Positions 10,479 to 27,090 of a DNA stretch of 37,086 nucleotides are shown here, piece by piece (within the stretch, counting starts at the first letter, position 1; each line of letters opens with the position of its first letter). The notes under the pieces were generated by a model. The model was not told the DNA's origin. It made no database searches and worked only from the letters and a program-made list of their open reading frames with translations. This DNA comes from a virus. The position numbers were made by a program, and so were the translations under genes. Location of the stretch: positions 1 through 37,086 of the IMG/VR virus record IMGVR_UViG_3300042543_000852. One strand, given 5' to 3'.

Positions 10479-10512
10479 ATTGCCCAGCACAAACCGGCTG
10501 GGCAATCTATCG
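10473..10512. terminator. Perfect 16-bp inverted repeat between convergent genes
   Basis: CGATAGATTGCCCAGC (10473-10488), 8-base loop, exact complement (10497-10512). It includes the methyltransferase stop codon on the left and directly abuts the stop codon of the leftward small gene on the right. No U tract follows on either strand, so it may act as a bidirectional terminator or as an mRNA 3'-end stabiliser. Confidence 0.75.
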
Positions 10513-10647: not shown

Positions 10648-10657
10648 ACATCCTCCT

Positions 10658-11137: not shown

Positions 11138-11163
11138 ACATGCTCCTTTGCGTTCGGGTTAAT

Positions 11164-11244
11164 GTCCATGCGGACAAGTGCATGAATGCTTCGAATGCGA
11201 AGGATAGCAACGCTTATAAGCACTTAATCGCATTATAAATCAAT
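11164..11244 (-). promoter_or_regulatory. Promoter/leader block A, duplicated upstream of 13844
   Basis: Contains CATGAATGCTTCGAA (11181-11195) and TCGCATTATAAATCAAT (11228-11244), plus GTCC/GGAC arms at 11164-11175. The same elements recur without gaps at 13870-13950. On the minus strand TATAAT (11232-11237) is a possible -10. The block starts 26 bases before the DUF3489 gene, and the conserved 15-mer lies 44 bases before its ATG. Confidence 0.6.
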
Positions 11245-11283
11245 GCGCTAACCAACTAATTCCGTTGACTTCGTATATGCCCT

Positions 11284-12534: not shown

Positions 12535-12734
12535 TCGATATCGAACCACTCCATGCAGGTATTCAGCAGGTGATTGTAATCGCCTGATTTTGCCACCTGC
12601 ATGAAAGCGTCGATTTCGGATTTTGGAAGCCCCGCATTATTTGCAGCGCGTTGGCAGAGACCAAGAATCATAAAGGCATTGCCATCCTGACCGACCAACT
12701 GCACATGCACGTTGGGATATTTGGGTGTTGTCAT
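12531..12734 (-). CDS. Small hypothetical protein (67 residues)
   Basis: Last gene of a four-gene leftward operon. The start is well supported by AAGGAG six bases before ATG. The sequence (KYPNVHVQLVGQDGNAFMILG, then a helical part with LPKSEIDAFMQVAKSGDYNHLL and CMEWFDID) resembles small conserved phage/plasmid proteins of unknown role. It ends by overlapping the stop codon of the C5 methylase, tail to tail, with no terminator between. Confidence 0.75.
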   Translation of the reverse strand: MTTPKYPNVHVQLVGQDGNAFMILGLCQRAANNAGLPKSEIDAFMQVAKSGDYNHLLNTCMEWFDID

Positions 12735-12744
12735 ACAATGCTCC

Positions 12745-12999
12745 TTATGCGTTGAGTTCAGCGAGTGAGATGGTAAATGCGTTACTTCTGTTTTGCAGCG
12801 TGACGATGCCGTTATCGATACTGGTCTTCCACCGGAAGCCTTGCTCGCAGGTGAAATCCTCGCTGCGGTTAATCGCCGCCAAATGCTCTGGGTGGATGAT
12901 GCAGGTATAGGCGTTGCCCATGCGCAAGGTGCGCAATTCGCCCCAGCTGTAGCTTTGTTTGTGGTAGGTTTGCCGATTGTTATGCGTAAAAGATGTCAT
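12745..12999 (-). CDS. Small hypothetical protein (84 residues)
   Basis: The start at 12999 is chosen from an AAAGGA site about eight bases upstream; the ORF extends to 13152 but has no site there and would overlap its neighbour. The protein is mixed polar (MTSFTHNNRQTYHKQSYSW, then GNAYTCIIHPEHLAAIN and FRWKTSIDNGIVTLQNRS). No recognised domain. Third gene of the leftward operon, 13 bases after the 106-residue gene and 10 bases before the 67-residue gene. Confidence 0.6.
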   Translation of the reverse strand: MTSFTHNNRQTYHKQSYSWGELRTLRMGNAYTCIIHPEHLAAINRSEDFTCEQGFRWKTSIDNGIVTLQNRSNAFTISLAELNA

Positions 13000-13012
13000 G
13001 GTTTGATTCCTT

Positions 13013-13333
13013 TCAGTTGTTGGTTTCGTTGAGGCTGGTGCCGATATAGCGTGCGTAGCTGTAGCCTTCGGGATTGGCGTAAAGCGTTTCGCGCTCCGGC
13101 GCGGTGATTGCCACCACTTGGCGGATGCTGTTACGGTCGCCACCCCGACCATCGAGCCAAGGCCAGTCCTTGTAAATCAGGCGCGTAAAGGTGTCGTACT
13201 CCTCGGTGGTGAGCGTGACTGTTTCGGCGATTTCGCATTTTGCGACCTCGCAGCCGTGGCTGTTAATCTCGGCTTGCATTTCCTGCAGGCTGCTTGGCTT
13301 GCGGGCAAATCGGACGGTTACAAAGTTGCTCAT
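13013..13333 (-). CDS. Hypothetical protein (106 residues)
   Basis: The start at 13333 follows AAGGAG by six bases; the longer frame overlaps the upstream gene and is rejected. The product (MSNFVTVRFARKPSSLQEM, then CEIAETVTLTTEEYDTF and WPWLDGRGGD) has an alpha/beta look and an ending with PEGYSYARYIGTS. I recognise no family. Second gene of the operon headed by the DUF6900-like gene. Function unknown. Confidence 0.65.
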   Translation of the reverse strand: MSNFVTVRFARKPSSLQEMQAEINSHGCEVAKCEIAETVTLTTEEYDTFTRLIYKDWPWLDGRGGDRNSIRQVVAITAPERETLYANPEGYSYARYIGTSLNETNN

Positions 13334-13334
13334 G

Positions 13335-13844
13335 TTACGCTCCTTTCCGTTTGGCGCTGGCTCTGCCTGCGGCGTATGCAGCTTCGAGGGCGGCTTTGAC
13401 ATTGAGCACTCCGACATCCTTAAAATCGAGGCTGTCGGATTTGCGTTCTTCGAGCGTCTCAAAATTGAGATGCGTAAGCGCGATGTTGGTAAGTATCTCG
13501 TCTTTGCTTTTCGGCGTGGTGTAGGGAATCAGCTTGCCCGTCTCTTCGCGGATGGCTTTTTCAAAATGCCTACGCCAGCCTTTATCGGCGTTGCGTTTTT
13601 CGAGGTGGTTTGCAACCGCCTCCGCCGTTGCTGGGCCGCCGTTGATGAAGCTCAAGTCATCCGCAAGGTGGCGACCGAAACGCGCATCGAGCAACGTGCG
13701 GGTTTCTTCGGGCGTAAGGTTAAAGGTTTTGGCAAAAAAGCGGCTGGCGGTATCCCAGGTCATTGCGGCATCGTAGCCGTTGCTGACGCTGGTTCCCCAA
13801 AAGCCCCATTCTTCGTTGTTGGTAGGTAGCGGTTCGTTTTTCAT
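13335..13844 (-). CDS. DUF6900-like protein
   Basis: 169 residues from the ATG at 13844 (AAAGGA six bases upstream; another ATG at 13850 is too close to that site). The N-terminal region reads EEWGFWGTSVSNGYDAAMTW, then LLDARFGRHLADDLSF, a motif seen in many plasmid and phage proteins. The C-terminal 50 residues match DUF6900: ILTNIALTHLNFETLEERKSD, then LDFKDVGVLNVKAALEAAY. Both parts are common in alphaproteobacterial mobile DNA without a known role. First gene of a four-gene leftward operon driven from promoter block B. Confidence 0.75.
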   Translation of the reverse strand: MKNEPLPTNNEEWGFWGTSVSNGYDAAMTWDTASRFFAKTFNLTPEETRTLLDARFGRHLADDLSFINGGPATAEAVANHLEKRNADKGWRRHFEKAIREETGKLIPYTTPKSKDEILTNIALTHLNFETLEERKSDSLDFKDVGVLNVKAALEAAYAAGRASAKRKGA

Positions 13845-13869
13845 ATGCATTCCTTTCGGTTGGTTGTTG

Positions 13870-13950
13870 TCCCCTGTGGACACCCCCATGAATGCTTCGA
13901 ACTGCATCTTAATCAACCAGAAAAATCAATAATTCGCATTATTTATCAAT
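13870..13950 (-). promoter_or_regulatory. Promoter/leader block B, paralogue of block A
   Basis: CATGAATGCTTCGAA (13887-13901) and TCGCATTATTTATCAAT (13934-13950) repeat the elements of 11164-11244 with identical 47-base spacing. The 15-mer lies 43 bases before the DUF6900-like ATG, nearly as in block A (44). The 74 bases from 13951 to the terS start hold no recognisable gene; TTGACT at 13971 could be part of a rightward packaging promoter, but the -10 is unclear. Confidence 0.6.
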
Positions 13951-14024
13951 ATATTAAACGTCTATTTGGCTTGACTGGAGGTGTGTCTTGGACATGGCAG
14001 TTTTATGGGGTTTTGGGGGCTGAT

Positions 14025-14567
14025 ATGGGCATGTCAATTCGTGCCTATGGTCGCCATCGCGGGGTCAGCGATGCGGCGGTAAGAAAGGCGATAAAATCAG
14101 GACGCATACGGCTGGAGGCGGACGGCAGCATCGGTGCGGATAAAGCCGATGCGCTCTGGAAAATTAACACCGATGTCGCCCAGCAACGTGGATCGCAAAC
14201 GGTGAAGCCGGTGCCGGATGCGGCGCTCGATGCGGTGCGCGATACGCTCAAAGAAAATGGCGCACCCACCAATGGCGGCACCACTTACATGCAGGCGCGC
14301 ACTGCGAATGAAGTATTGAAGGCGCAAACCAATCGTGTGCGGCTGCAAAAACTTAAAGGCGAGTTAATCGACAGGGCGAAAGTTATGGCGCATGTATTCA
14401 AGCTGGGACGGCAGGAACGCGATGCATGGCTTAACTGGCCTGCACGCGTCTCCGCGCAAATGGCAGCGGAGCTGGGTGCTGATCCACACACCACGCATGT
14501 GACGCTGGAAACCTATGTCAGACAGCATCTCTCAGAGCTTGCCGAATTCCGCGCAGGCGTCGACTGA
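14025..14567 (+). CDS. Terminase small subunit (Nu1-like)
   Basis: 180 residues. It binds the packaging site and hands DNA to the large subunit. An N-terminal winged helix-turn-helix of the Nu1 type covers about residues 1-45 (SIRAYGRHRGVSDAAVRKAIKSGRI). The C-terminal helical region (NEVLKAQTNRVRLQKLKGELID, then ARVSAQMAAELGADPHTTHVTLE) is typical of these proteins. ATG at 14025 is chosen because GGGGG lies five bases upstream; ATG at 14031 is also possible, and the open frame extends upstream to 13845 across promoter block B, which is not protein-like. It overlaps terL by 53 bases. Confidence 0.85.
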   Translation: MGMSIRAYGRHRGVSDAAVRKAIKSGRIRLEADGSIGADKADALWKINTDVAQQRGSQTVKPVPDAALDAVRDTLKENGAPTNGGTTYMQARTANEVLKAQTNRVRLQKLKGELIDRAKVMAHVFKLGRQERDAWLNWPARVSAQMAAELGADPHTTHVTLETYVRQHLSELAEFRAGVD

Positions 14568-16530
14568 ATTTTACGAAGGTGCGGATGCGGTAGAGAACCA
14601 GTGGCGCAGTGGATTAACGCCAGAATCGTTCCTCGCCGTTTCCGAGTGGGCGGATCGCTATCGGATGTTGTCTTCTAAATCCGCCGCCGAGCCAGGGCGG
14701 TGGCGTACCAGCCGCACGCCTTATCTGAAGCAGATCATGGATAATCTCTCGCCGCACTCGCCGGTGCAGCGGATCATTTTCATGAAAGGCGCGCAGATCG
14801 GCGGCACAGAATGCGGCAATAACTGGATCGGCTATGTCATCCATATGGCACCAGGGCCGATGATGGCGGTGGCACCGACGGTGGAGTTGGCGAAACGTAA
14901 CTCGAAGCAGCGTATCGATCCGCAGATCGATGAAACGCCGGAGCTGCGCGAATTGGTGAAGCCCGCCCGCGCGCGTGATTCAGGCAACACCATCCTGAGC
15001 AAGGAATTTCGCGGAGGCATTCTGGTGATGACGGGTGCCAACTCGGCGGTGGGACTCCGTTCCATGCCAGCGCGGTATTTGTTTATGGATGAGGTCGATG
15101 GGTATCCGGGCGATGTGGAGGGCGAAGGCGATCCAATCCTGCTTGCCGAACGCCGCTCCGCCACCTTCCAGAAGCGGCGGAAGATTTTTCTGGTGAGTAC
15201 GCCCACCACCAAGGGTATCTCGCGCATCCAGCGTGAATTCGACGGCAGCGACCAGCGGTATTTCCATGTGCCGTGTCCGCATTGCGATCATTTCCAGCCA
15301 TTGCGATTCACGCAGCTGCGCTGGCATGAGGGCAAACCACAAGAGGCGCAATATGCCTGCGAGGAATGCGGCGCGTTGATCGATGAGCATCATAAAACGC
15401 AGATGCTGGCGCGTGGACGCTGGGTTGCCACTGCTGAAACGGATGGCCGCACGATTGGCTACCATCTCTCTTCGCTTTACAGCCCAGTGGGTTGGTTTTC
15501 GTGGGGTGATGCGGCGGAGATGTTCGAAAACGCACAGGCGAATCCTGAGCTGATGAAGGGGTTTGTCAATACGGTGCTGGGCGAGCCGTATGAAGAAGAA
15601 TACGAAGCTCCCGAATGGAAACGGCTCTATGAACGCCGTGAACCATACCCAATGGGCGTGGTGCCAAATGGTGGATTATTTCTTACCGCTGGCGCGGACG
15701 TGCAGAAAGACCGCATCGAATGCGAAGTGGTGGCATGGGGCCGCCATAAAGAAAGCTGGTCGGTCGATTACCATGTCCTCATGGGCGATACCGCCATGCC
15801 GGAAGTGTGGGAAAAGCTCGAAGCATTGCTCAGGCGCGATTGGCACCATGCAGGTGGTGGCACATTGCCCATCCGCGTGCTGGCGGTGGATAGCGGTTAC
15901 GCGACGCAGGATGTGTATGGCTGGGTAAAAACTCACCCGCAAGCGAGCTGGGGTGGTGCGGGTGCGCGCGCATCGTCCCCGCGCACGGTGGTCGCGGTGA
16001 AAGGCCGCGATAGTGAAACCGCACTGATTTTGAGCGTGTCGAAAGCCGATGTCGGCAGCAAACGGCGTGGGCTTCGCGTCTGGAATGTCAGCGGGCCGGT
16101 TGCCAAGATGGAGCTGTATCGCTGGCTGAAACTTGACCGTCCGACCAAGGAAGATGAACCGTTTCCGCCCGGAACATGCCACTTCCCAGAATATGCCGAG
16201 GAATATTTTAAGCAGCTGACGGCGGAAAAGCGTGTGATCAAATTGCACAAAGGCTTCCCCCGTGCCAGCTGGGAAAAAGACCCGACGCGCAATAACGAGG
16301 CACTCGATTGCCGCGTCTATGCACGCACGGCGGCAAGCCTTTACGGTCTCGACCGTTTTTCCGAGCGGCAATGGCAGCAGATGGAAGTGTCGCTCGGTAA
16401 GCAGCGTAACGTTCCTTATGCGGATACTTACGCGCCATCGCCGCAGCAAACTGCTGAAACAACTGCACCGACGCGCACGGCAGCCATTAGCCAGCGCACC
16501 ACTATGGCGGCGGATGATCCGTATCTATGA
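14515..16530 (+). CDS. Terminase large subunit (GpA family)
   Basis: 671 residues, normal for lambda gpA-type terminases. N-terminal ATPase: deviant Walker A MKGAQIGGTE near residue 90, Walker B RYLFMDEVDG near 187, and a STPTT coupling motif near 228. A zinc-ribbon-like CPHC/CEEC pair follows near 255-290. The C-terminal nuclease domain carries acidic residues at GADVQKDR, LAVDSGYAT and NEALDCRVYA. It cuts concatemers and drives DNA into the procapsid. The family predicts cohesive-end (cos) packaging. The ATG at 14515 lies inside terS, so the pair is coupled; only a weak GGAA precedes it. Confidence 0.97.
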   Translation: MSDSISQSLPNSAQASTEFYEGADAVENQWRSGLTPESFLAVSEWADRYRMLSSKSAAEPGRWRTSRTPYLKQIMDNLSPHSPVQRIIFMKGAQIGGTECGNNWIGYVIHMAPGPMMAVAPTVELAKRNSKQRIDPQIDETPELRELVKPARARDSGNTILSKEFRGGILVMTGANSAVGLRSMPARYLFMDEVDGYPGDVEGEGDPILLAERRSATFQKRRKIFLVSTPTTKGISRIQREFDGSDQRYFHVPCPHCDHFQPLRFTQLRWHEGKPQEAQYACEECGALIDEHHKTQMLARGRWVATAETDGRTIGYHLSSLYSPVGWFSWGDAAEMFENAQANPELMKGFVNTVLGEPYEEEYEAPEWKRLYERREPYPMGVVPNGGLFLTAGADVQKDRIECEVVAWGRHKESWSVDYHVLMGDTAMPEVWEKLEALLRRDWHHAGGGTLPIRVLAVDSGYATQDVYGWVKTHPQASWGGAGARASSPRTVVAVKGRDSETALILSVSKADVGSKRRGLRVWNVSGPVAKMELYRWLKLDRPTKEDEPFPPGTCHFPEYAEEYFKQLTAEKRVIKLHKGFPRASWEKDPTRNNEALDCRVYARTAASLYGLDRFSERQWQQMEVSLGKQRNVPYADTYAPSPQQTAETTAPTRTAAISQRTTMAADDPYL

Positions 16531-16539
16531 GGATTCACT

Positions 16540-16773
16540 ATGACCGATCTTACCACGTTGCAAACCCGCCTTGCAGAAGCGGAAGAAGCACAGCACCAGC
16601 TGATGATGGGCGCGAAAGAAGTGAGCGTGTCGATAGGAAATTATGGCTCCACTACCTACGCGCAGGCCAATGCCGAAAAGCTCGAACAATATATCGAAAA
16701 ACTCAAAAGCCAGATCGCCCGCTTAAGCGGTACCGCGCGTCGTGGCGTGATCAAGGTGGTATTCGATGAGTGA
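16540..16773 (+). CDS. Head-tail joining protein gpW
   Basis: 77 residues with the gpW pattern: LTTLQTRLAEAEEAQHQLMMG, then VSVSIGNYGSTTYAQ and YIEKLKSQIARL. In lambda this protein completes the neck after DNA packaging. It starts ten bases after terL and overlaps the portal gene by eight bases. Confidence 0.92.
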   Translation: MTDLTTLQTRLAEAEEAQHQLMMGAKEVSVSIGNYGSTTYAQANAEKLEQYIEKLKSQIARLSGTARRGVIKVVFDE

Positions 16774-18304
16774 TACTTCACATCGTGCCGCATCGCTAAC
16801 TGCGCGCGAACTCTCCAGCTGGCTGCCTGGTAACGGCTCGGCGGATGGTGATCTGCTGGGTGAATTACCCACGCTGGTGGGTCGTTCGCGTGATCTCATC
16901 CGTAACCACGGCGTGGCAGCGGGCGCGGCACAGACGATGGTGGATAATGTTGTCGGCACGGGACTCAGGCTGGTGGCCTTGCCTGATTACCGCGCACTTG
17001 GAAATACCAAAGAATGGGCGGATGATTGGGCGCGTGATGTTGAATCCCTCTGGCGCGGATGGGCGGAAGGGTTTGAGTGCGATGCGGCTTTGTCACTCAA
17101 TTTTGCGGGGCTGACTACGCAGGTGTTCCGCTCCGGTTTTATCAATGGCGAGGCATTGGCCTTACCGCTCTGGCTGCCAGAACGTGGTGGTGCATTTGCG
17201 ACCACGATTCAGCTGGTGGAACCGGATCGCCTGAGTAATCCGGGCGGCAAGCCAGACGATAAAACACTCCGCGCAGGAATTGAGATCGATGATTACGGCG
17301 CGCCGCTGGCGTACCATATTCGAAAAACCCATCCTGGCGATGTGTTTATGCCGTTTGCATCTTCAGCAGATGAATGGCAGCGCGTTCCCTCGCGCACCCC
17401 GTTCGGTCGCAGGCGTGTGCTGCATATCCATGATAAGGAGCGCAGTGGCCAGAACCGTGGCAAGCCCGCACTCACCTCTGTCATGCCGATGTTTAAAATG
17501 CTCGATCATTATGAACGTTCGGAGCTGCAAGCGGCGGTAGTAAACGCCATGATCGCGGCCTTTATCGAAACGCCGCTCGATGCAGAAACCGTGGTTGAAA
17601 TGTTTGGTGGCAGTTACGAGGATTACGACACAAAGCGCAAAGAATGGAAGGCCAAGCTCGCGGGAGGCTCCATCATCACCACATTCCCTGGTGACAAGCT
17701 GTCGCCGTTTACGCCGAGCCGCCCGAATTCTGCTTACGGTGCGTTTGTCGAGAATATCCTACGTCATATTGGGACAGGCCTCAATCTGCCCTTCGAACTT
17801 CTAATGAAGGATTTTTCAAAGACAAATTATTCGAGTGCCCGCGCCGCATTGCTCGAAGCATGGCGGTTTTTCTCAGGCCGCAGGCAGTGGCTCGCCACCT
17901 ATTGGGCGAAGCCCGTGTATGAGCTGTGGCTGGAAGAAGCGATTAATAGCAGCAAGATCGAGGCGCCAGATTTTTACATCAACCGTGCCGCATGGTCGCG
18001 CTGCAAATGGATTGGTCCCGGTCGCGGCTGGGTTGACCCGGTCAAAGAAGCGCAAGCCTCACAAATCCGCATGGAGGCTGGTCTTTCCACCCTCGAAGAT
18101 GAATGCGCTATGCAGGGGCTCGATTGGGAAGAAGTGCTGGAGCAGCGTGCGCGTGAAAAAGCCAAGATGCAGGAGCTTGGGTTGGGTGATTTGACCCCCA
18201 GCATTGCGGTTAAATCGCTCCCAGGCCAAGGCAAAGATAGTGGAAATGACAACAGCAATAATCAGGAGGATGACAATGCGAGCATGGAACAAAGCGACCA
18301 GTGA
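16766..18304 (+). CDS. Portal protein (lambda family)
   Basis: 512 residues. Forms the ring at the capsid vertex through which DNA passes. Lambda-portal marks are visible: ARELSSWLPGNGSADGDLL, LVGRSRDLIRNHGVAAGAAQ and DNVVGTGLRL near the N-terminus, FINGEALALPLW and VEPDRLSNPGG in the middle, IGTGLNLPFELLMKDFSKTN and SSARAALLEAWRFF near residue 360, and a Gln/Asn-rich tail. The last 29 bases overlap the protease gene, whose ribosome-binding site lies inside this reading frame. Confidence 0.96.
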   Translation: MSDTSHRAASLTARELSSWLPGNGSADGDLLGELPTLVGRSRDLIRNHGVAAGAAQTMVDNVVGTGLRLVALPDYRALGNTKEWADDWARDVESLWRGWAEGFECDAALSLNFAGLTTQVFRSGFINGEALALPLWLPERGGAFATTIQLVEPDRLSNPGGKPDDKTLRAGIEIDDYGAPLAYHIRKTHPGDVFMPFASSADEWQRVPSRTPFGRRRVLHIHDKERSGQNRGKPALTSVMPMFKMLDHYERSELQAAVVNAMIAAFIETPLDAETVVEMFGGSYEDYDTKRKEWKAKLAGGSIITTFPGDKLSPFTPSRPNSAYGAFVENILRHIGTGLNLPFELLMKDFSKTNYSSARAALLEAWRFFSGRRQWLATYWAKPVYELWLEEAINSSKIEAPDFYINRAAWSRCKWIGPGRGWVDPVKEAQASQIRMEAGLSTLEDECAMQGLDWEEVLEQRAREKAKMQELGLGDLTPSIAVKSLPGQGKDSGNDNSNNQEDDNASMEQSDQ

Positions 18305-19484
18305 ACCGTGGGCAATCACGGAATCAGCCTTGCAGACGATTTTAGAAATCGCCGAGCGCGAAAATGAAAAACCCGAAGCGGTGGCGGCGCGGCTGGGAAA
18401 AGAATTGCAAAACACCCATACCGTGACCGAACGTGATGGTGTGGCGGTCATTCCCGTCACCGGCCCGCTCTTTCGCTACGCCAATTTGTTCACAGCCATC
18501 AGCGGTGCCACCTCCTATGAAATACTGGCGCAGGATTTTACCGCCGCCATCGAAAACCCCGACATCAATGCCATCATTCTTAATATTGACTCTCCTGGTG
18601 GTGAGGTAAATGGCTGCTCGGAACTGGCCAATATGATTTTTGCGGCACGCGGCAAAAAACCGATCATCGCTTATGCCTCCGGTGATGCTGCGTCGGGTGC
18701 GTACTGGATTGCCAGCGCTGCCGATCAGGTAGTCGCCTCCGAAACCTCCGGCCTCGGCTCTATCGGCGTAGTGGCGGTGTATCGCGGTGCCAAACCCGAT
18801 AAAAATGCGCCCACCACCATCGAAATTGTCTCTTCACAAAGCCCGTTTAAGCGCCTCAACCCCGAAAGTGATGAAGGCCGTGCCAAGCTACAGACGCGCA
18901 TCGACGCGATGGCGGAAGTATTTGTGAACACCCTCGCGCGCAATCGCGGCATTGAAGCTACGCAAGTGTTAGAGCAGTTCGGTGGCGGCGACATCTTGAT
19001 CGGCGCGCACGCCGTGAATGCTGGTCTTGCCGACCGCATTGGCTCTCTCGAAAAACTGATCGCGGAATTTTCCGCCAGTTCAAACCCCGCCCTCCAGCGG
19101 GGTTTTTTATTACCCGCAACCACTCAACAGAAGGAGACCGCCATGAATTTAGAAACACTCGCCCAAGAACATCCTGAATTGCTCGCGCAAGTGCAAAGCG
19201 ATGCGAGGGCATCTGAACGATCACGCATCCAGACCATCCTTGCATCCGAGGAAGCCAAGGATCGTGGCGATCTCGCCCAGCACCTATCCTTTGCCACCGA
19301 TATGGCAGCGGATAGCGCGGTCGCAATGCTCGCTAAGGCACCAAAAATTCAACCCGAACCAAAAACCAACGGCTTCGATGCGGCCATGCGCGATCTCGGC
19401 AATCCGAAAATCACTCCAGCAAGTGCCGAAGCCGAGGAAGACTCCATCGACAGCGTGGCTAAACGCCTCGCTGCGGCTTCATGA
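18276..19484 (+). CDS. S49 (ClpP/SppA-type) prohead protease fused to scaffold
   Basis: 402 residues from ATG 18276 (AGGAGG six bases upstream). The SppA-like serine protease domain spans about 50-265, with NIDSPGGEVNG for the oxyanion region, nucleophile S140 in AASGAYW and probable general base K192 in FKRLN. It matures the prohead, like lambda gpC. From about residue 290 the chain is a charged helical scaffold-like segment (LETLAQEHPELLAQVQSDAR, later GFDAAMRDLG). As in lambda C/Nu3, this 3' part has its own start signal. A terminator-shaped hairpin lies in the coding sequence between the two parts (19085-19108). Confidence 0.93.
   Translation: MRAWNKATSEPWAITESALQTILEIAERENEKPEAVAARLGKELQNTHTVTERDGVAVIPVTGPLFRYANLFTAISGATSYEILAQDFTAAIENPDINAIILNIDSPGGEVNGCSELANMIFAARGKKPIIAYASGDAASGAYWIASAADQVVASETSGLGSIGVVAVYRGAKPDKNAPTTIEIVSSQSPFKRLNPESDEGRAKLQTRIDAMAEVFVNTLARNRGIEATQVLEQFGGGDILIGAHAVNAGLADRIGSLEKLIAEFSASSNPALQRGFLLPATTQQKETAMNLETLAQEHPELLAQVQSDARASERSRIQTILASEEAKDRGDLAQHLSFATDMAADSAVAMLAKAPKIQPEPKTNGFDAAMRDLGNPKITPASAEAEEDSIDSVAKRLAAAS
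19085..19108 (+). terminator. Terminator-like hairpin inside the protease-scaffold gene
   Basis: CCCCGC (19085-19090), 6-base loop, GCGGGG (19097-19102), then six T (19103-19108). It has every feature of an intrinsic terminator but is read in frame (encoding NPALQRGFLL). It lies at the junction between the protease and scaffold domains, 34 bases before the internal scaffold start. Confidence 0.7.
19143..19484 (+). CDS. Scaffold protein from an internal in-frame start (Nu3-like)
   Basis: 113 residues if translation starts at the internal ATG 19143, preceded by AAGGAG with good spacing. The product is acidic, helical and without hydrophobic core signs, as expected for a capsid scaffold. In lambda, Nu3 is made in the same way from the 3' third of gene C. 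The arrangement is seen here; that it is used is inferred. Confidence 0.6.
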   Translation: MNLETLAQEHPELLAQVQSDARASERSRIQTILASEEAKDRGDLAQHLSFATDMAADSAVAMLAKAPKIQPEPKTNGFDAAMRDLGNPKITPASAEAEEDSIDSVAKRLAAAS

Positions 19485-19548
19485 ACCAACCCCTTATGAC
19501 CTGCAATCCATTGATAACCCAACCCTAGAACCCAAAGGAGATAACGCT

Positions 19549-19923
19549 ATGCCAGTATCAGGCTTTACCAATCAGGGCACTTATACCCCTGACAATCTAA
19601 TCGCCGGTGAGTTTCCACGCGTTGCACGCAAGGTAACAATCGCAACCCCAGCCAATCTTTTACGTGGAGCGGTATTGGGGCGCATCACCGCCAGCGGAAA
19701 ATATATCCTCAGCGCCTCAGCGGCGGTGGATGGATCGCAAACGCCGGAGGCTATTCTCGGAGAAGATACCGATGCCTCTGGAGGAGACAAGGAAGCGATT
19801 GTTTACCTGTCGGGTGAGTTCAATGAACTCGCTCTGACGCTTGGCGCTGGCCACACCGCAGCCTCCATCTCACTTGGCCTGCGGAATAAATCCATCTTCT
19901 TAACCAAAAACCAAGGAGCTTAA
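19549..19923 (+). CDS. Head decoration protein (gpD-like)
   Basis: 124 residues from ATG 19549, with AAAGGAG upstream. The sequence shows the gpD family pattern: YTPDNLIAGEFPRVARKVTI, then LLRGAVLGRIT and PEAILGEDTDASGGDKEAIVYLSGEFN. Trimers of this protein cap the expanded capsid and stabilise it. The reading frame runs upstream into the protease gene, but that part is only a shadow. It ends two bases before the major capsid gene. Confidence 0.93.
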   Translation: MPVSGFTNQGTYTPDNLIAGEFPRVARKVTIATPANLLRGAVLGRITASGKYILSASAAVDGSQTPEAILGEDTDASGGDKEAIVYLSGEFNELALTLGAGHTAASISLGLRNKSIFLTKNQGA

Positions 19924-19925
19924 CC

Positions 19926-20963
19926 ATGCCTGTCGATATTTTTTCTACGCAAGTGCTGAACAAGACCGTCGAATATCTCGACCGTCCAGCCTCATTCCTG
20001 CTCGATACATTTTTCGGGCAGGTGCAAACCGCCGATACCGAAGAAATTTTCTTCGATATCGATAAATCGAAACCGCGCCTCACGCCGTTTGTGTCACCGC
20101 TGGTTGCGGGTAAAGTCGTCGCTGATTCGGGCTATGAAACCAAAAGTTTCAAGCCAGCCTATGCCAAGGATAAGCGCCGCTTTGACCCCAGCGCTCCCCT
20201 CAAACGCACTATCGGAGAAAGAATCGGTGGCACGCTCACGCCCCAACAGCGACGGGATGCGGCACTGAATCGCTCGCTGACCAACCAGCTGGAAAATCTC
20301 ACACGCCGAGAGGAAGTGATGGCTTCTGAAGCACTGAGGCTGGGACAAGTGACCGTTTCTGGAGATAACTACCCGACCGTGGTGGTGAATTTTCAGCGCG
20401 ATGCGGCACTCACAGTGACACTCACGGGCGTAAACCGCTGGGGTCAGGCTGGAATCAAGCCTCTGGATAATCTGGAGGATTGGGCAAGCCTTGTGCAAAC
20501 CAAGTCTGGCGCAGCAGCCAAAACGGTGATCATGGACCCTGCCGCATGGCGACTGTTCCGAAACAGCGACGATGTGAAAGCGTTGCTCACCATCTACCGT
20601 GGCACCAATTCGGCTTTCCAGGTAGATCCGCTAGTGCGTGGCCAAGGTAATGAGAAGGCGCGTTTCATCGGCACCATCGGTGATTTTGACATCTGGATTT
20701 ACAATGATGTCTATACCGATGATCTGGGCAACACCGTACCGATGCTTCCCACCAACACGGTGATTGTGGGCAGCCCCGTCAATGTGGAAGGAACACGCTG
20801 CTACGGCGTGATTCAGGACGAAAAAGCGGCATACCGCGCACAGCGTTATTTCAGTAAATCATGGCTGGAAGAAGACCCTGCAGTGCGTTGGCTGCTTTTG
20901 CAGTCGGCACCACTTGTCGTGCCGTATCGCCCGAATGCCTGCTTCTGTGCAACCGTCAATTAA
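19926..20963 (+). CDS. Major capsid protein (gpE family)
   Basis: 345 residues with AAGGAG seven bases upstream. Family marks include FLLDTFFGQVQTADTEEIFFDID at the N-terminus, SPLVAGKVVADSGYETKSF, a long helix with RRDAALNRSLTNQLENLTRR and late motifs IYNDVYTDDLGN and KSWLEEDPAVRWLLLQSAPLVVP. It has the HK97-type fold and forms the icosahedral shell. Directly follows the decoration gene, as D-E in lambda. Confidence 0.96.
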   Translation: MPVDIFSTQVLNKTVEYLDRPASFLLDTFFGQVQTADTEEIFFDIDKSKPRLTPFVSPLVAGKVVADSGYETKSFKPAYAKDKRRFDPSAPLKRTIGERIGGTLTPQQRRDAALNRSLTNQLENLTRREEVMASEALRLGQVTVSGDNYPTVVVNFQRDAALTVTLTGVNRWGQAGIKPLDNLEDWASLVQTKSGAAAKTVIMDPAAWRLFRNSDDVKALLTIYRGTNSAFQVDPLVRGQGNEKARFIGTIGDFDIWIYNDVYTDDLGNTVPMLPTNTVIVGSPVNVEGTRCYGVIQDEKAAYRAQRYFSKSWLEEDPAVRWLLLQSAPLVVPYRPNACFCATVN

Positions 20964-20975
20964 TGGAGGACACTC

Positions 20976-21221
20976 ATGAAAATCACATCACACACGACAC
21001 TTGTTGTTGGTAAAGCCGGAAAAACGGAGGAAGTGCCTCCTGGTGCGCCGGTCGATATCGATGACGATGAAGCCAAAGACCTTATCGCACGCGGTATCGC
21101 CGTGAGGGTTGGAAAATCGGATAAATCTGCGGAGAAGGAAACAAAAGAGCCGCAGGGTAGCAAACCACCTGCAGAAGGAGGTAACAGCAAACCACCCGTC
21201 GATGGTGGAAAACAACCATGA
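20976..21221 (+). CDS. Small head/packaging-region protein
   Basis: 81 residues with GGAGG before the ATG. The first 50 residues are a compact beta/alpha unit (KITSHTTLVVGKAGKTEEVPPG, then DDDEAKDLIARGIAVRV). The tail is flexible and low-complexity, with two KPP-x5-G units (GSKPPAEGG, NSKPPVDGG). Position after the capsid gene equals lambda FI, but sequence similarity to FI cannot be shown. It overlaps the next gene by four bases. Confidence 0.7.
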   Translation: MKITSHTTLVVGKAGKTEEVPPGAPVDIDDDEAKDLIARGIAVRVGKSDKSAEKETKEPQGSKPPAEGGNSKPPVDGGKQP

Positions 21222-21523
21222 CGGCGTTTTCCCGCTCCGTCGATTCGCTCTTTGCCAAACTGGGGGTGGCGGCAACATTCCAGCCACGCATCGGCATGAA
21301 CCGTGCCGTCACCCTTATTCCCAAGCGCCCTGACGAAATCATTGGCCTTAGACAGAGCGACATCAGCAGCGAAGTCACGCTGTTCGATCTGCGGATCAAC
21401 GAAGTAGCAGATCCGAAGGCCGATGATGTGGTGATTTATCAGGGTGAAGAGTATCGCATCATCGGTGAACCGAGGCGCGACATACATCGTCTGATCTGGA
21501 CGGTGGAGGCAGTAAAGCGATGA
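21218..21523 (+). CDS. Head-tail attachment protein (FII-like)
   Basis: 101 residues. The pattern resembles lambda gpFII-type connectors: SRSVDSLFAKLGVAATF, VTLIPKRPDEI and a beta-rich end PKADDVVIYQGEEYRIIGEP. It joins the packaged head to the tail. It overlaps both neighbours by four bases (ATGA), so synthesis is coupled. Confidence 0.75.
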   Translation: MTAFSRSVDSLFAKLGVAATFQPRIGMNRAVTLIPKRPDEIIGLRQSDISSEVTLFDLRINEVADPKADDVVIYQGEEYRIIGEPRRDIHRLIWTVEAVKR

Positions 21524-22179
21524 GGCTGGAAGCGGCAATCCGTGGCGATCTGCAAAAGATCATGAAGCAGGAAGCCGCCGCCGCTGAAAAAGCTGTGACG
21601 CTGGGTGTTACGGAAGCCGCAACGGGTCTCAGGGATGAACTTAAATCGCAGGTGTTACGGGCTGGCCTTGGTGAAAAAATGGCGCGCACCTGGCGGTTCA
21701 AACGCTATCCTGCCAGTGGCTTTTCGCTTGGCACTGCGGGGCTGGTCTACAGCAAAGCTCCGCTGATCATTCGCGCCTTCAGCGAAGGAGCCGTTATTAA
21801 AAGCGACAAAGGCATGTTTCTTGCCATCCCCACCGCCGCCGCTCCCAAGCGAGGGGTCGGCGGAAAACGCATTAACCCGGATAATTTTCCTGAACATTCG
21901 CTGGGACGATTGCGTTTTGTGTATCGCAAGGGCGCACCGTCTCTGTTGGTAGTGGATAATCTGCGCGCTGGCACGGGCAAACGCGGTGGCTACCGCAAAG
22001 CCTCGGAGAGTGCGCTGAAAACAGGCCGAGGCCTTGCCACGGTGGTGATGTTCATTCTGCTGCCGCAGGTGATGCTCAAGAAACGGTTGGATGTCGATGG
22101 GGCAATGCAGCGCTGGCGCGACAAACTCCCCCAACTCATTTTGCAGAATTTTACGGAGACAAACGATGCCGAGCGTTAG
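21520..22179 (+). CDS. DUF6441 phage neck/tail protein
   Basis: 219 residues. Matches the DUF6441 pattern of alphaproteobacterial phages: RLEAAIRGDLQKIMKQE, ARTWRFKRYPASGFSLG, VYSKAPLIIRAFSEGAVIKS, MFLAIPTAAAPKRG and LRFVYRKGAPSLLVVDN. Its position between the connector and tail terminator genes is that of lambda gpZ, so it probably completes the tail top. It overlaps the next gene by 14 bases. Confidence 0.8.
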   Translation: MRLEAAIRGDLQKIMKQEAAAAEKAVTLGVTEAATGLRDELKSQVLRAGLGEKMARTWRFKRYPASGFSLGTAGLVYSKAPLIIRAFSEGAVIKSDKGMFLAIPTAAAPKRGVGGKRINPDNFPEHSLGRLRFVYRKGAPSLLVVDNLRAGTGKRGGYRKASESALKTGRGLATVVMFILLPQVMLKKRLDVDGAMQRWRDKLPQLILQNFTETNDAER

Positions 22180-22606
22180 AGAGCAGATCATAGCAGCATT
22201 CTTTGCCGAGCTTAAAACGCTGGAAAGCAGCCGGATCAAGGTGTTGCGTAACCCTGATAAGCTGATGAAGGTGCCAGCGGACGGCGCGATCATCGTTCTG
22301 CGTGATGGCGAAAGCGGCGATCCCGAAGTGTTGCTCTCACCGCTCACCTATATTTACGAGCAGGTCGCCACGCTCGAAATCATGATCGACAATGCCTACG
22401 CGCAAAGCCAGCAGACCAGTCTCGATGATCTGCTGATGATCATCGGCAACCTGATCGACAATAACCGCAGCATGAACGGCCTCGCCGAATGGATGGAAGC
22501 GCAGGCACCAGAGTTTTTGCAGGAAGCGGTTGAAGGCGCACCCGCCATCCGTACCGCCACCGTCAATGTGCTGATGCGGTTTAATACCACCAGTCCGCTT
22601 CGTTAA
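22166..22606 (+). CDS. Tail terminator-like protein (gpU position)
   Basis: 146 residues from ATG 22166 (GGAGAC before it). The N-terminus SVREQIIAAFFAELKTLES, the middle IIVLRDGESGDPEVLLSPLTY and the end PAIRTATVNVLMRFNTTSPLR fit phage tail-completion/minor tail proteins placed directly before the tail tube gene. These cap the tail tube and set its end. Assigned mainly by position and general pattern. Confidence 0.7.
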   Translation: MPSVREQIIAAFFAELKTLESSRIKVLRNPDKLMKVPADGAIIVLRDGESGDPEVLLSPLTYIYEQVATLEIMIDNAYAQSQQTSLDDLLMIIGNLIDNNRSMNGLAEWMEAQAPEFLQEAVEGAPAIRTATVNVLMRFNTTSPLR

Positions 22607-22632
22607 TTTTTTAACCCAACAAGGAGACTAAT

Positions 22633-23907
22633 ATGGCTCGATCCTATGGTTCGGCAGCGACGCTGCTTGCGCTTAAAGAAGCTAGTTACGGGGTAAAACC
22701 ACCCGGCAACTGGGAGAAATTTGCATTTGTTTCGTCCGATATCGGCGCAGAGCAGAACCTGCTGTCCTCCGAATTGCTCGGTCAGGGACGTGAGCCACGC
22801 GCGCCGTTTCGTGATGTAATTAACGATGAAGGTAATTTTGTAGTGCCGGTGGAAGCACGCGATTTCGGTCGCTGGCTACAGCTGCTGATGGGAAACCCTA
22901 CCTCGGCCGGTGTCGCCGCGACAGGTGATATTACCTTTACCGCCAATCCGAGCGCGAGTCATACCATCACCATTAACGGTGTGGTGTGGACATTCGTGGT
23001 ATCGGGCGCGACGGGTACACAGACCAATATCGGTGCAAACCTGAATGCTACGCTTACGCAACTGGCAACCGATCTCAATGCTTCGGTGAATGCGAGCATC
23101 ACGCCCGCAACTTATTCCAACGGTGCTGGCACGAAACTTAACATTGTGCATGATACGCTCAGTGCGGTGGGCAACAGTTTCACGCTCGCCTCTGGCAACC
23201 CCAATGGTGTGGCAAGCGGTGCCACGCTATCAGGCGGCGGCTTTACCCACACGTTCGTCAGTGGCGCAGCGGCACTACCATCATTCGCCGCTGAGATCGG
23301 CCATGTGAATGTGCCTGCTTATTTCGTGCATACGGGCTGCATGCTCAATTCGATGGCACTGAATTTCCAACGCTCCGGTGCGGCGAATGCCACGCTTAAT
23401 ATTCTGGCGCAGGGAGAGACGCGTTTTGTAGCATCGCAAGGCGGCACACCGACAAGCCGTATCTACAAGCCCTTCAGCCAGTTTAACGGTTCGGTCAAAC
23501 GCAACGGTGCAGCACTGGGCAATGTGACGGGCGCGCAATTTACCTACAGCAACGGCATGCAGGGTGTGCCGACCATCCGTAATGATGGGCTGATCGATGG
23601 GGTTGACCCCACCACGATCACCACCACGGGCAGTATCGAAGTGCGCTTTGCCGATACCACGCTGGTGGATGATGCCATCAACAACACCGCCATCGAACTA
23701 GAGCTGGCTTACCGTCTGGCGGGGCTGGACGGCAATAACTTCAGCCTCACATGGACATTCCACGAGGTGTATCTGCCGCGCCCGCGCATCCCCATCTCTG
23801 GCCCTGGCGGCGTGCAGACCAGCTTCAACTGGCAGGCGGTCTATGACGATGCGCTCGGAAAATCCGTCACTGCCGTGCTTAAAAACGATGTCACCAGCTA
23901 CCCATAA
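22633..23907 (+). CDS. Major tail tube protein with inserted domain
   Basis: 424 residues, with AAGGAG before the ATG. The outer parts (about 1-93 and 212-424) form a tail tube protein: GSAATLLALKEASYG, AEQNLLSSELLGQGREPR, DFGRWLQLLMG, then HVNVPAYFVHTGCMLNSMALNFQRSG, QFTYSNGMQGVPTIRNDGLIDG and the closing region. Between them, about residues 95-210, sits a Gly/Thr/Ala-rich beta domain (SHTITINGVVWTFVVSGATG, NIGANLNATLTQLATDLNAS) that also occurs in other phage tail proteins and is probably surface-exposed on the tube. Confidence 0.88.
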   Translation: MARSYGSAATLLALKEASYGVKPPGNWEKFAFVSSDIGAEQNLLSSELLGQGREPRAPFRDVINDEGNFVVPVEARDFGRWLQLLMGNPTSAGVAATGDITFTANPSASHTITINGVVWTFVVSGATGTQTNIGANLNATLTQLATDLNASVNASITPATYSNGAGTKLNIVHDTLSAVGNSFTLASGNPNGVASGATLSGGGFTHTFVSGAAALPSFAAEIGHVNVPAYFVHTGCMLNSMALNFQRSGAANATLNILAQGETRFVASQGGTPTSRIYKPFSQFNGSVKRNGAALGNVTGAQFTYSNGMQGVPTIRNDGLIDGVDPTTITTTGSIEVRFADTTLVDDAINNTAIELELAYRLAGLDGNNFSLTWTFHEVYLPRPRIPISGPGGVQTSFNWQAVYDDALGKSVTAVLKNDVTSYP

Positions 23908-23916
23908 GGAGCCATT

Positions 23917-24438
23917 ATGTTGAAACTCGACCTTAAAAAAGAACCGTTCTGGATAGCCCTGCAAGCGGATGCGCGCGTGAAGGTAAAACCGCTCACCTCC
24001 GCGCTTATGCATATGGCGCAGGCAGATGCGGTGCGCGCCATGCTCGCCCTGCAAGCCGAACGCAAAGCGCGCCTGGATGCAGGGGCGGATGCAAGTGATC
24101 TGCCCGATCTGGAAAATGATCGGGTGCGTCATGCGCTATCAGAAACCGCGCTCATTACGGCACTGGCCACCCATGCCATCATCGCGTGGGAAAATGTGAT
24201 GAAGCCGGGAGGCGAGGAGCTGGCCGAGTTGACCACTGCGAATATCACGGACTTAATGGACATCTGGTTCGTGAATCAGGAGTTTGGCAAAAAATACATG
24301 CGCCAGTTAGATCTGCTGGAGGCAGAGGGAAACGGCTTGCGGCCCGTTGTAAATGGCACTTCGGCGGCGGGCCGCGCTACTGCAGGTCGTGCACGGAAGA
24401 AAATCTCCCCTGCAGCCGAGGCGAAGCCAGCACCCTGA
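23917..24438 (+). CDS. Tail assembly chaperone (gpG-like)
   Basis: 173 residues. The N-terminal part has the fold signs of lambda G-type chaperones (LKLDLKKEPFWIALQADARV, ITDLMDIWFVNQEFGKKYM) and the last 30 residues are a flexible basic Ala-rich tail. G proteins coat the tape measure protein and help tube assembly. A second reading frame at -1 relative to this one continues past the stop codon into a T-like protein, as in the lambda G/GT pair. SD AAGGAG lies just before the ATG. Confidence 0.75.
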   Translation: MLKLDLKKEPFWIALQADARVKVKPLTSALMHMAQADAVRAMLALQAERKARLDAGADASDLPDLENDRVRHALSETALITALATHAIIAWENVMKPGGEELAELTTANITDLMDIWFVNQEFGKKYMRQLDLLEAEGNGLRPVVNGTSAAGRATAGRARKKISPAAEAKPAP

Positions 24439-24728
24439 ACGGCGAACGCTGCCCCTATATTGAGCATCAGGCGATCACCGAGGAAGGTCATGCGGTGTGG
24501 GATGTGATCCTGCGCGGTGCCAACCAGCTGCGCGTGGGTGCTGGCGGTCTCGTGCTTGGCTTCGATATCGAAGCCTTATCGGTTATTGGCGCTGCGATTG
24601 GTTACGACACCACGCCCTTACTGCTTCTTTTTCACCATGCCGAACATGGCCTTCACCAAGCGTTAAAAAATAATGGCGACAGCAACCACGAGAAATGTAT
24701 CGATCCGACTGGCGGTGATCGAGGGTGA
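24435..24728 (+). CDS. T-like part of a G-T frameshift product (-1 frame)
   Basis: About 97 residues in the -1 frame: CPYIEHQAITEEGHAVWDVI, then GANQLRVGAGGLVLGFDIEALS, which looks like a genuine protein similar to DUF1799/T-type tail chaperones. No ATG, GTG or TTG with a ribosome site precedes it (the coordinate given is a CTG overlapping the G stop). The -1 frame is open across the last 250 bases of G, so a programmed -1 shift inside G is the likely way it is made. A run of six A at 24289-24294 (GGC AAA AAA TAC) is a possible slip site, but not a standard heptamer. It overlaps the tape measure gene by 56 bases. Confidence 0.6.
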   Translation: MNGERCPYIEHQAITEEGHAVWDVILRGANQLRVGAGGLVLGFDIEALSVIGAAIGYDTTPLLLLFHHAEHGLHQALKNNGDSNHEKCIDPTGGDRG

Positions 24729-27090
24729 TAAAGCGCGGCGTGAGCTGACACTCACCGGCGATACTGGCGAGCGTGCGTTAAAGAAGATTAAGGACGCGAC
24801 GCAACCCGCATCCCGTTCGCTGGTTGCCGTTAATGCGGTGAGCCAGGAAGTGCGCCTTGGCATGGAAAGCCTTGCCGGTGGCGCAGGGTCGGTTGGCAGT
24901 GTGCTGGGTCGACTTGGGCCGATCGGCCTTGCCACCGCCGCCGTGCTGGGCGGTCTGGCGCTCGCCACGGCTAAGGGAATCGCCGAATTCAAGGAGGCTG
25001 AACAGGCACTCAATGGTCTGAATGCCGCACTGAAAGCCACCGATCAGGCATCGGGTGTGACTGCCCGTGAAATCACCGCGCTCGGCGAAGCCATTGAGGC
25101 CAACACTTTATTCAAGAAGGAGGAAATACAAAACGCGGCGGCAGCCCTGACTTCATTCCAGAATGTGGCGGGCGATGTATTCACCCGCGCGCTTGCACTT
25201 TCCACTGATCTCGCCGTGCGGCTTGGCACCGATGTGCCATCCGCCGCCGACATGCTGGGGAAATCGCTGGAAAATCCCGAAGAAGGCCTTGGGCGGCTGG
25301 CACGGAAATTCTCAGACCTATCGCCTGCACAGAAAGAGGTGATCGAGAATTTTATTAAACAAGGCGATGTCGCTTCCGCGCAGGCGGTAATACTGGAGCA
25401 TCTGGAAGGCAAAACCCGTGGGCTGGCAGAAGCGCAAGCCAAAGGACTCACAGGTGCAGCGGATTCGCTCGGCGATGCATGGGACGATCTCATGGAATCG
25501 TTCGGGCGCACGGTGGGTGAATCGGCAGCCGCACAATCGAGCCTCAGCGCACTTACCCGCGTGGTGCGTGGGCTGCAGGAAGCACTCGACCCTACGCCTG
25601 CTAACCGCAAATCGCAGTTGGAAAAAGAAATCTCCGAGCTGGAAAATAGCTTCGGTACACGGCTGGATCGCGCCGTGCTGGGCAGTGCACCCGCGCTCGA
25701 TGCGAAGAAAGAAGATCTGCGCCGGATTAACGAAGGCATTGCAGCGGAAGAATTGCAGGCGGATAAAGAACGCCGGGAAGCGCGTGCTGCCGCTGACCGT
25801 GCCGCTGCCGAGCGTCGCAACGAAACACTGCTTGGCATTGAGCGCGAGTACCAGAAAAAGCTCAAGGAAAGCACGCAGACCGAGCGTGATCGTATCCTCG
25901 AAGATGCTGCTGATGCCAAAAAGCGAATCGATGGATTGTTTAAGGATAATCGTAACTCTGATTCCGCCCGCAGTGCGCTTGAAGCCGTCGATGCCACCAC
26001 CCGCGCCAAACTGGCCAAGCTCGATGAAGAAGCGGCACGCCCTGCGCTGCAGTTGGCGGAGGCCAATAAGAAAGTCATCGCCACACTGGAAAAACGGCTT
26101 CAGCTGGAAGGCACTGCCGATCCGCGTGCACGGTTCATTCAAGCGGAAACCGATAAGCTCAATGCCAATGCCACCAAGGAATATCGTGACCGCGTGGCAG
26201 AGCTGGCTGGCTCGCTCTATGACCTGCAGGAGGCAGAAAAACAGGCAAAAGACGCCGAGGAAAGCCGCGTTAAGGCGATTGAGCAGATCACCGAAGCCAT
26301 CCTCGATACCAGCACTGGCTATGATGTTGCCAAACAGGCACTCGACCAGTGGAGGGAAAAACTGATCGATGATCTTGGTGGTGCCACAGAAGCAAATCAG
26401 CGCTACCTGGAACAGATCGAGCAGATATACGCCGTCAGGCTCAAAGAAATTTATGATAAATCGCTGCTCGATAGCGATAAATGGGAAGATGGTGCCACCC
26501 GCGCGCTGCGCCGCTACGCCGATGAAGCCACCAATGCTGCCAAAAATGCCGAGGAATTATTCGGCAGCGCTGCCCGCAAGGTAGAAGACACTCTGGTCGA
26601 CATGGTCAGCAGCGGCGAAATCTCGGTCGAAAAAATCGGCGATCTGCTGCAGTCGTTGCAGCAGGATATTCTGCGTATGTTCATCCGTGAAAATATCACC
26701 GGCCCCATCGCTGGTGGCTTGGGTGATTTACTCAAAGGTGGCAGCGGCGGCAGCAGTGGCGGTGGGTTTCTTGGCGGGTTCTTCGATGATATTTTCGGCA
26801 GCCTGTTTCATGGCGGCGGCACAGTAGGTGAAGCAAGTCCCTCGCGCCGCGCTGTACCTGCCTATGCCTTTGCGGGTGCACCGCGCCTGCATAGCGGTCT
26901 GATGCCCGATGAATTTCCCGCCATCCTGCAGCGTGGTGAAACGGTACTACCAAAAAATATGAAATCTGGCGGCAACAATATCACCTTCAATATCACCACG
27001 CCAAACGCGCAGAGCTTCATGGATAGCCAGGGCCAGATCATGAGCAAGCTGGCTGGCCAGATGCAGCGCTTTCGCACGAGGAACAACTGA
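24673..27090 (+). CDS. Tail tape measure protein
   Basis: 805 residues, the second longest product of the phage. It sets tail length and passes into the host envelope during DNA injection. A hydrophobic stretch lies at about 77-100 (LGPIGLATAAVLGGLALATA). A lambda-type tape measure region with ALNGLNAALKATDQASGV and LGTDVPSAADMLGKSLENPEEG lies at about 110-220. Long charged coiled-coil follows at about 300-600 and a Gly-rich region at about 690-720 (GGSGGSSGGG), then the typical end HSGLMPDEFPAILQRGETVLP. Its length implies a short-to-medium flexible tail. Confidence 0.95.
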   Translation: MATATTRNVSIRLAVIEGDKARRELTLTGDTGERALKKIKDATQPASRSLVAVNAVSQEVRLGMESLAGGAGSVGSVLGRLGPIGLATAAVLGGLALATAKGIAEFKEAEQALNGLNAALKATDQASGVTAREITALGEAIEANTLFKKEEIQNAAAALTSFQNVAGDVFTRALALSTDLAVRLGTDVPSAADMLGKSLENPEEGLGRLARKFSDLSPAQKEVIENFIKQGDVASAQAVILEHLEGKTRGLAEAQAKGLTGAADSLGDAWDDLMESFGRTVGESAAAQSSLSALTRVVRGLQEALDPTPANRKSQLEKEISELENSFGTRLDRAVLGSAPALDAKKEDLRRINEGIAAEELQADKERREARAAADRAAAERRNETLLGIEREYQKKLKESTQTERDRILEDAADAKKRIDGLFKDNRNSDSARSALEAVDATTRAKLAKLDEEAARPALQLAEANKKVIATLEKRLQLEGTADPRARFIQAETDKLNANATKEYRDRVAELAGSLYDLQEAEKQAKDAEESRVKAIEQITEAILDTSTGYDVAKQALDQWREKLIDDLGGATEANQRYLEQIEQIYAVRLKEIYDKSLLDSDKWEDGATRALRRYADEATNAAKNAEELFGSAARKVEDTLVDMVSSGEISVEKIGDLLQSLQQDILRMFIRENITGPIAGGLGDLLKGGSGGSSGGGFLGGFFDDIFGSLFHGGGTVGEASPSRRAVPAYAFAGAPRLHSGLMPDEFPAILQRGETVLPKNMKSGGNNITFNITTPNAQSFMDSQGQIMSKLAGQMQRFRTRNN

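Follow-up and report, generated by a model that had tools for sequence, protein, structure and literature searches.

The window analysed here is the whole of a 37,086-base virus record, in which an integrase and a repressor-like gene lie on the minus strand and the head genes on the plus strand. The head genes encode the terminase large subunit, a lambda-type portal, an S49 protease with a C-terminal scaffold, the decoration protein D and the major capsid protein E. The ORF at 18276-19484 matches Pfam PF01343 and phrog_53, a head maturation protease (residues 2-397); phrog_17040 and phrog_8399 match the nested scaffold part alone, and the scaffold is a separate gene in some other phages. With its S49 domain, a C-terminal scaffold that has its own in-frame start and Shine-Dalgarno sequence, and D and E following, this is a gene of the lambda C/Nu3 type. 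The features relevant to the analysis are as follows.

16766-18304, plus strand: portal protein (PF05136), upstream neighbour of the protease
18276-19484, plus strand: S49 head maturation protease with C-terminal scaffold domain (lambda C/Nu3 type), 402 amino acids
19082-19105, plus strand: terminator-shaped hairpin, stem 19082-19090 / 19097-19105, loop 19091-19096, identified by fold, conservation and covariation
19103-19108, plus strand: tract of six T abutting the GC stem, from the sequence, of which the first three are also paired, with AAA
19131-19136, plus strand: AAGGAG ribosome-binding site of the nested scaffold, from the sequence
19143-19484, plus strand: nested in-frame scaffold (Nu3-like), 113 amino acids, with its own ATG and AAGGAG
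19549-19923, plus strand: head decoration protein D (PF02924), downstream
19926-20963, plus strand: major capsid protein E (PF03864), downstream

The hairpin arms AAACCCCGC (19082-19090) and GCGGGGTTT (19097-19105) flank the loop CCTCCA (19091-19096) and form nine pairs, six of them G-C, around a loop of six, with a calculated energy of -14.8 kcal/mol. The reading frame is open across the whole structure (SNPALQRGFLLP), and the nested scaffold ATG at 19143 starts 34 bases past the T run. An in-frame GC stem with six T inside the S49 gene was the core of the original prediction, and that description is exact (19082-19108); the internal scaffold start with an AAGGAG of its own, 34 bases later, is likewise present where it was placed (19131-19136, ATG 19143). 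Just 5' of the hairpin, at 19062-19075, lies a further short palindrome, GCGGAATTTTCCGC.

Taken within the window, the hairpin is prominent in quality and unremarkable in the company it keeps. Scanning both strands from 10000 to 29000 returned 27 terminator-like sites, of which this one has the most pairs and the most G-C pairs. Shuffled sequence is expected to yield 22.2 such sites (sd 4.9), so the count alone proves nothing about the hairpin. The local fold has a z of -2.43, with 4 of 200 shuffles folding equally well. A terminator score of the d'Aubenton-Carafa type, computed with ViennaRNA energies, gave 29.2 for the hairpin. Three other plus-strand sites in the window pass the scan, at 6320, 9032 and 35938, with scores of -22.7, 29.2 and 29.4, respectively; besides the hairpin, none lies between 13845 and 35938.

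We assembled 154 distinct loci, including the window, from viral contig scans, one genome scan, genome searches and single records; two of the viral contig scans contributed the best 80 of 94 and the best 80 of 157. Loci ending within 60 bases of the protease end were dropped, for example L008 and L174, two metagenome contigs whose 3' ends fall inside the hairpin, perhaps through an assembly or sequencing break at the palindrome. The junction between protease and scaffold was scored for a stem followed by at least 5 T in 8 bases, and the same test was applied at 17 control offsets in the same loci. Nucleotide-level conservation of the hairpin was among the checks named in the original prediction, and we found this conservation to be strong: stem and T tail occur together at the junction in 54 of 153 measurable loci (window included), compared with 0 to 8 of 127-154 loci at the control offsets, all but one of which gave 0 to 3. 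These counts reject a chance origin. A loose stem criterion by itself showed no enrichment (74 of 153 at the junction, 27-90 at the controls), whereas at least 5 T of 8 stood behind 54 of the 74 junction stems and behind only 0-8 of the 27-90 control-offset stems. It is the stem combined with a T tail, and not the stem alone, that is special to the junction.

The phylogenetic distribution is restricted as well. A protease-domain tree was built by a quick method for 129 of the 154 rows and drawn open, omitting lambda and the rows below 45% identity to their query (save one group); in it the element is confined to a single clade of 63 rows (SH-aLRT 94). Its gain and loss require 5 changes on this tree, compared with 41.5 in shuffles. 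When entire loci were scanned, the top terminator-like site fell at the junction for 41 of the 63 clade rows and for none of the 91 others, and L047 is the sole row outside the clade to pass the loose criterion. Inspection by eye of isolate phages nearest to the clade (five phages and L047-L049) revealed no like element at the junction, L047 being weak by the loose criterion. Searches of 369 and 385 genomes, from the classes of the two named metagenome-assembled genomes (MAGs) described below, recovered the two known members again (L193 and L198); the further rows examined from these searches were outside the clade or lacked the element (L194 by the tree; L199, which has no linker; L200, where two hairpins are each followed by only 1-2 T).

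When the clade is read in codon register, a T-tailed hairpin is kept by 54 of its 63 rows, the window among them, with the pattern X-CCn-... / ...-R-GGn-TTT and variants of it, the codon sets that define the register having been picked after the rows had been viewed. This total coincides with that of the junction test by exchange of two rows for two: L161 and L162 pass the loose junction test and bear the label 'hairpin' in the tree and are excluded in the codon-register table, which includes L149 (hairpin at +54) and L177 (one mismatch), both 'none' in the tree. For the tree, L047 was set by hand to 'none' in spite of passing the loose test, and L152, with 4 T, to 'hairpin'. The nine clade rows without the element are the seven of one subgroup (L157-L162 and L165) together with L056 and L058. 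The nested start is still present in all six of these whose junction was inspected.

Two clade members belong to named MAGs, and they are the only ones. L020, whose 61 kb contig (CANHDY010000002.1) belongs to a Rickettsiales MAG, has a protease-scaffold gene 97% identical to that of the window, a hint at the phage host; L021 derives from a Gammaproteobacteria MAG. The contig numbers of L059/L167, L135, L143 and L179 suggest prophages in the genomes of isolates. The GCGGA/TCCGC arms of the palindrome at 19062-19075 are kept in the window's own subgroup and not in L021. In L021 (identical to L039), the 3' hairpin arm GCGGGG could pair alternatively with a CCCCGC just before the scaffold ATG, enclosing the ribosome-binding site. 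We noticed this pairing in L021 only, where a two-state switch is possible.

Across the clade, the two arms of the stem change together. The rows comprise 13 distinct seven-pair arm types, including CCCCG/CGGGG, CCCGG/CCGGG, CCCTC/GAGGG, TCCTG/CAGGA and CCCTTC/GAGGGG, and all seven pairs form in 52 of the 54 rows. One of the two exceptions, L177, has six pairs; the other, L166, has two in the common register and seven once its 5' arm is displaced by one base relative to the codons. Pairing holds in 93% of cells across the 13 types; re-dealing the 3' arms gave 74% (at most 88%), and none of 10,000 re-deals reached as high a value, a figure to be taken as a guide and not as a probability, given the relatedness of the rows and a register selected in knowledge of the hairpin. 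Six of the seven pairs switch between kinds of standard pair, with 15 changes on the tree in total, and several are two-sided (C-G, G-C and T-A at one pair); P1-G1 is the invariant pair. Two further tallies are not evidence: the 12 stem-type changes are simply the minimum for 13 types, and core trimming and row choice by themselves largely account for the T found at both of the first two positions past the GC core in all 21 tails.

The hairpin is encoded within a protein linker, and the linker peptides themselves have a common pattern, roughly (N/S/A)P..(R/E/Q)G(F/L/S). A conserved peptide, such as a self-cleavage site, might thus be encoded as a palindrome by coincidence. We recoded the linkers synonymously 100 times, holding amino acids fixed and drawing codons at the group's own usage, and defined the signal as a stem score of at least 18 with 5 T of 8. 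The signal is present in 49 of 51 distinct real linkers; after recoding, it appears in 1.25 of 51 on average and never in more than 5, so that identical peptides lose it. Codon choice at 19 distinct sites is skewed: all 7 of 7 Glu codons of the 3' arm are GAG (background 37%), Phe in the tail is TTT in 12 of 13 (background 65%), Gly is never GGA (0 of 18; background 13%) and Pro never CCA (0 of 17; background 25%). The hairpin signal is kept beyond the amino-acid requirement. Moreover, the 5' arm of L166 pairs although it lies one base off the codon register of the others, and stem changes alter the residues themselves (R-G to P-G in L057, Q-D in L175). The recoding result largely refutes a constraint on peptide alone, and we consider it highly improbable. 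A DNA operator for a dimeric protein was also rejected, as the 8-base arms are spaced 3, 6, 9 or 15 bases apart in relatives and the T tract is 3' throughout, with a 5' A run as well only in L137, L142 and L147.

The original prediction had suggested that the hairpin might be the fossil of two fused genes and had proposed looking for the split state in relatives. Separate protease and scaffold genes do exist outside the clade, in L103, L107 and L204 (Sulfurimonas phage SNW-1). In L107 (about 3240-3265), a hairpin of nine pairs, TTGAGGCTC...GAGCTTCAA, covers the last protease codons, with 3 T in the next 8 bases; in L103 (about 3233-3250), one of seven pairs does so, with 2 T in the next 8; L204 has just a weak 5-pair hairpin at the protease end. 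Split genes with hairpins over the protease end are what a former intergenic terminator, now functionless, might be expected to leave behind. The L103 and L107 hairpins, however, have no T tail and belong to distant lineages, and the fused outgroups L009-L011 and L199 lack both linker and hairpin. No old terminator was seen at any of the three split-gene protease ends. A functionless relic is also at odds with clade stems that change on both sides and are maintained in excess of what the amino acids demand. On these last two grounds we rejected the fossil, whose probability we judge to be minimal and on a par with that of the peptide constraint. A hairpin at this place may, from these sequences, be older than the clade. 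The tail-less hairpins fit a non-terminating hairpin equally well; they slightly weaken the reading of the element as a terminator, and slightly strengthen both a post-transcriptional role, considered below, and the fossil.

Since the hairpin is kept in dozens of phage sequences while its letters change, it very probably does some job, and its form is that of a stop signal for transcription. It shares with intrinsic (Rho-independent) terminators a GC stem, a short loop and a T tract directly behind, and its score equals that of the window's two best other sites; it differs in lying in frame inside an essential ORF with a nested start behind it, where release of the RNA is only predicted. The score is above 0 in 44 of 52 scorable clade rows (window included) and at or below 0 in eight (L156, L167, L169, L163, L175, L181, L136 and L139). 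In 11 of the 54 rows the T tract is broken after two T (TTCTT...) with the strong stem retained. The eight low scores and the 11 broken tracts count against a terminator, as does the expectation that a translating ribosome would normally melt the hairpin. The nine clade rows without a hairpin, of which the six inspected retain the nested start, indicate that the element is dispensable in some phages.

A T run behind a stem-loop has other potential uses, as terminators and slippage signals have features in common. Transcriptional slippage or -1 frameshifting on the run (GGT TTT TTA), stimulated by the stem-loop, would yield protease without scaffold. The window's G GGT TTT TTA looks slippery, and in 24 of the 54 rows, which do not include the window, the final T of the run opens a stop codon in an alternative frame (one frame in 11 rows, the other in 13). 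Slipping at that point would terminate the protein immediately, which slightly raises the standing of this explanation. Nevertheless, the runs vary in length, being 2 (11 rows), 4 (4), 5 (9), 6 (27) or 7 (3), and lie in differing codon phases; other-frame stops are scattered from the end of the run to 154 codons beyond, and the early ones need opposite shifts across rows. Given these inconsistencies, slippage was rejected as a common role, and we regard it as very improbable.

The 3' end might instead be the product, as the terminus of an ORF-internal small RNA of the Hfq type. Rfam returned a full-length match to isrJ (RF01393, an Hfq-binding small RNA) at 19049-19106, at 29.2 bits, and the relative L006 resembles isrJ too (29.1 bits, E 0.11). 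Membership in isrJ was rejected, however, as the window's match falls short of the gathering score of 37, and nothing at the gathering threshold was found in the window or in 20 relatives. Among seven relatives searched at a lax threshold, resemblance to isrJ was confined to L006, a member of the window's own subgroup, and five families weakly match the same stretch, which points to the terminator shape alone. We therefore hold such a small RNA to be scarcely more probable than slippage.

Lambda offers the best-known comparison. Its C/Nu3 gene and head operon share with the window an S49 protease fused to a scaffold that has its own in-frame start, followed by D and E. In contrast to the window, no hairpin was found at the C/Nu3 junction of lambda; its terminator-like hairpins are located near the start of gene C and between genes D and E. 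The first, at 4484-4512 (185-213 in L050), is in frame, 66 nt past the start, and scores 15. The second, with a T run, lies at about 6097-6120 (about 1798-1818 in L050), just before the start of E, and scores 20. The gene C stretch CCCGCCTAYGCGCGGGTTTTCTTTTG is kept save for one loop base in five of six lambdoid relatives (L206-L211; 80-95% identity), and the sixth, L210, is missing one stem C in a record with further single-base gaps; as the peptide is conserved too, we take this conservation as a lead. Across the 154 loci, strong terminator-like sites cluster at the distances expected of two further junctions: portal/protease, with 11 sites at -795 to -880 relative to the protease end, and D/E, with 12 at +812 to +955, lambda included. 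These junctions were assigned by distance, with annotation checked in lambda only. In L135 and L142, a second strong terminator-like hairpin (GCCGCCTTCGGGCGGC followed by six T) lies about 820 bases before the protease end, near the portal/protease junction.

A device that sets protease against scaffold and capsid levels had also been proposed from the window. Such a device is possible, and the element probably does act on transcription or on the transcript. The head, however, requires scaffold, D and E in much higher copy number than the protease, and a plain terminator would lower exactly these products relative to the protease, a point against that reading. A conditional or a post-transcriptional role is thus easier to defend, and the stoichiometry leaves the latter a substantial share.

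A post-transcriptional element could take the form of a hairpin with a U/A-rich 3' flank that marks an mRNA processing or stability boundary, or that insulates and exposes the nested ribosome-binding site (a standby site); it would raise scaffold expression independently of protease translation, a direction suited to the excess of scaffold and capsid over protease. The geometry is favourable, as the GC core ends 27-60 nt 5' of an in-frame start preceded by a Shine-Dalgarno sequence in 51 of 54 rows, the automatic start call not being credible in the other three. Retention of the stem where the T tract is broken, the tail-less hairpins at the protease end in L103 and L107, and the similar lambda hairpin directly ahead of the capsid gene E are all consistent with it. 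Yet neither a stability hairpin nor a standby site needs the T tail that so consistently accompanies the stem (54 of 74, compared with 0-8 of 27-90), nine clade rows lack the element, and among the 91 rows outside the clade none but L047 has even a loose version. On balance we consider a post-transcriptional role possible though unlikely.

We favour, at close to even probability, a conserved in-frame intrinsic terminator or strong pause that is conditional on ribosome coupling or antitermination. A polymerase with a ribosome close behind it, or one modified by a phage antitermination system, would pass the hairpin; among ten upstream ORFs searched, no antiterminator was matched by name. A polymerase with neither, as in stray transcription in a lysogen, in early infection or under failing translation, would stop there, and scaffold, decoration and capsid proteins would not be made. 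The role of the hairpin would then perhaps be to halt unwanted capsid production. The cut mRNA would be a protease message without a stop codon and hence a putative tmRNA substrate, as with arfA.

Two parts of this proposal have a precedent in E. coli. A closely following ribosome is reported to keep intrinsic terminator hairpins from forming, and stalling to unmask them (PMC5021804). The pyrL hairpin reporters and EF-P work reported there share with our site a terminator in a translated region that is masked by the ribosome and unmasked by stalling; the systems covered in the part of that report drawn on here are an engineered reporter and E. coli genes, whereas ours is a conserved natural phage site with putative gating. 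For arfA, a stem-loop within the ORF is reported to act both as terminator and as RNase III site, giving a nonstop mRNA repressed through trans-translation (PMC10107115). The likeness to our site lies in a terminator-shaped stem-loop positioned within an ORF, before the stop codon; dependence on tmRNA or RNase III is only putative here, and arfA, as described in that source, is a ribosome-rescue gene repressed by trans-translation, whereas ours is a structural gene of a phage, with a further start past the hairpin.

Intrinsic terminators are themselves well known; what appears to be new is the conservation of an intrinsic-terminator-like element, in frame, inside a nested structural gene of a phage. 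In the open-licence literature, we found no description of a protease-scaffold junction signal, of phage intragenic terminators or of lambda late internal terminators that matches it. A stop-shaped signal in frame in an essential late gene is unexpected, all the more so with a stem that changes on both sides, as every change must satisfy two codes.

A broader and more doubtful proposal, which we rate a little below the post-transcriptional role, is that lambda-type head operons in general carry in-frame intrinsic terminators at their junctions (portal/protease, protease/scaffold and decoration/capsid) as a translation-gated checkpoint, the site moving between junctions in evolution and lambda having two. 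Only a polymerase that is ribosome-coupled or antiterminated would carry transcription on into the capsid gene; transcripts that fail would end as stop-less protease mRNAs and then be cleared. With its related signals at 4484 (gene C) and 6097 (between D and E), lambda would allow the question to be addressed in a standard laboratory phage. If conditional termination at the protease-scaffold junction is true, the hairpin would offer a natural system in which to test how ribosomes gate intrinsic terminators, and, for the phages that carry it, a checkpoint coupling transcription, translation and head assembly.
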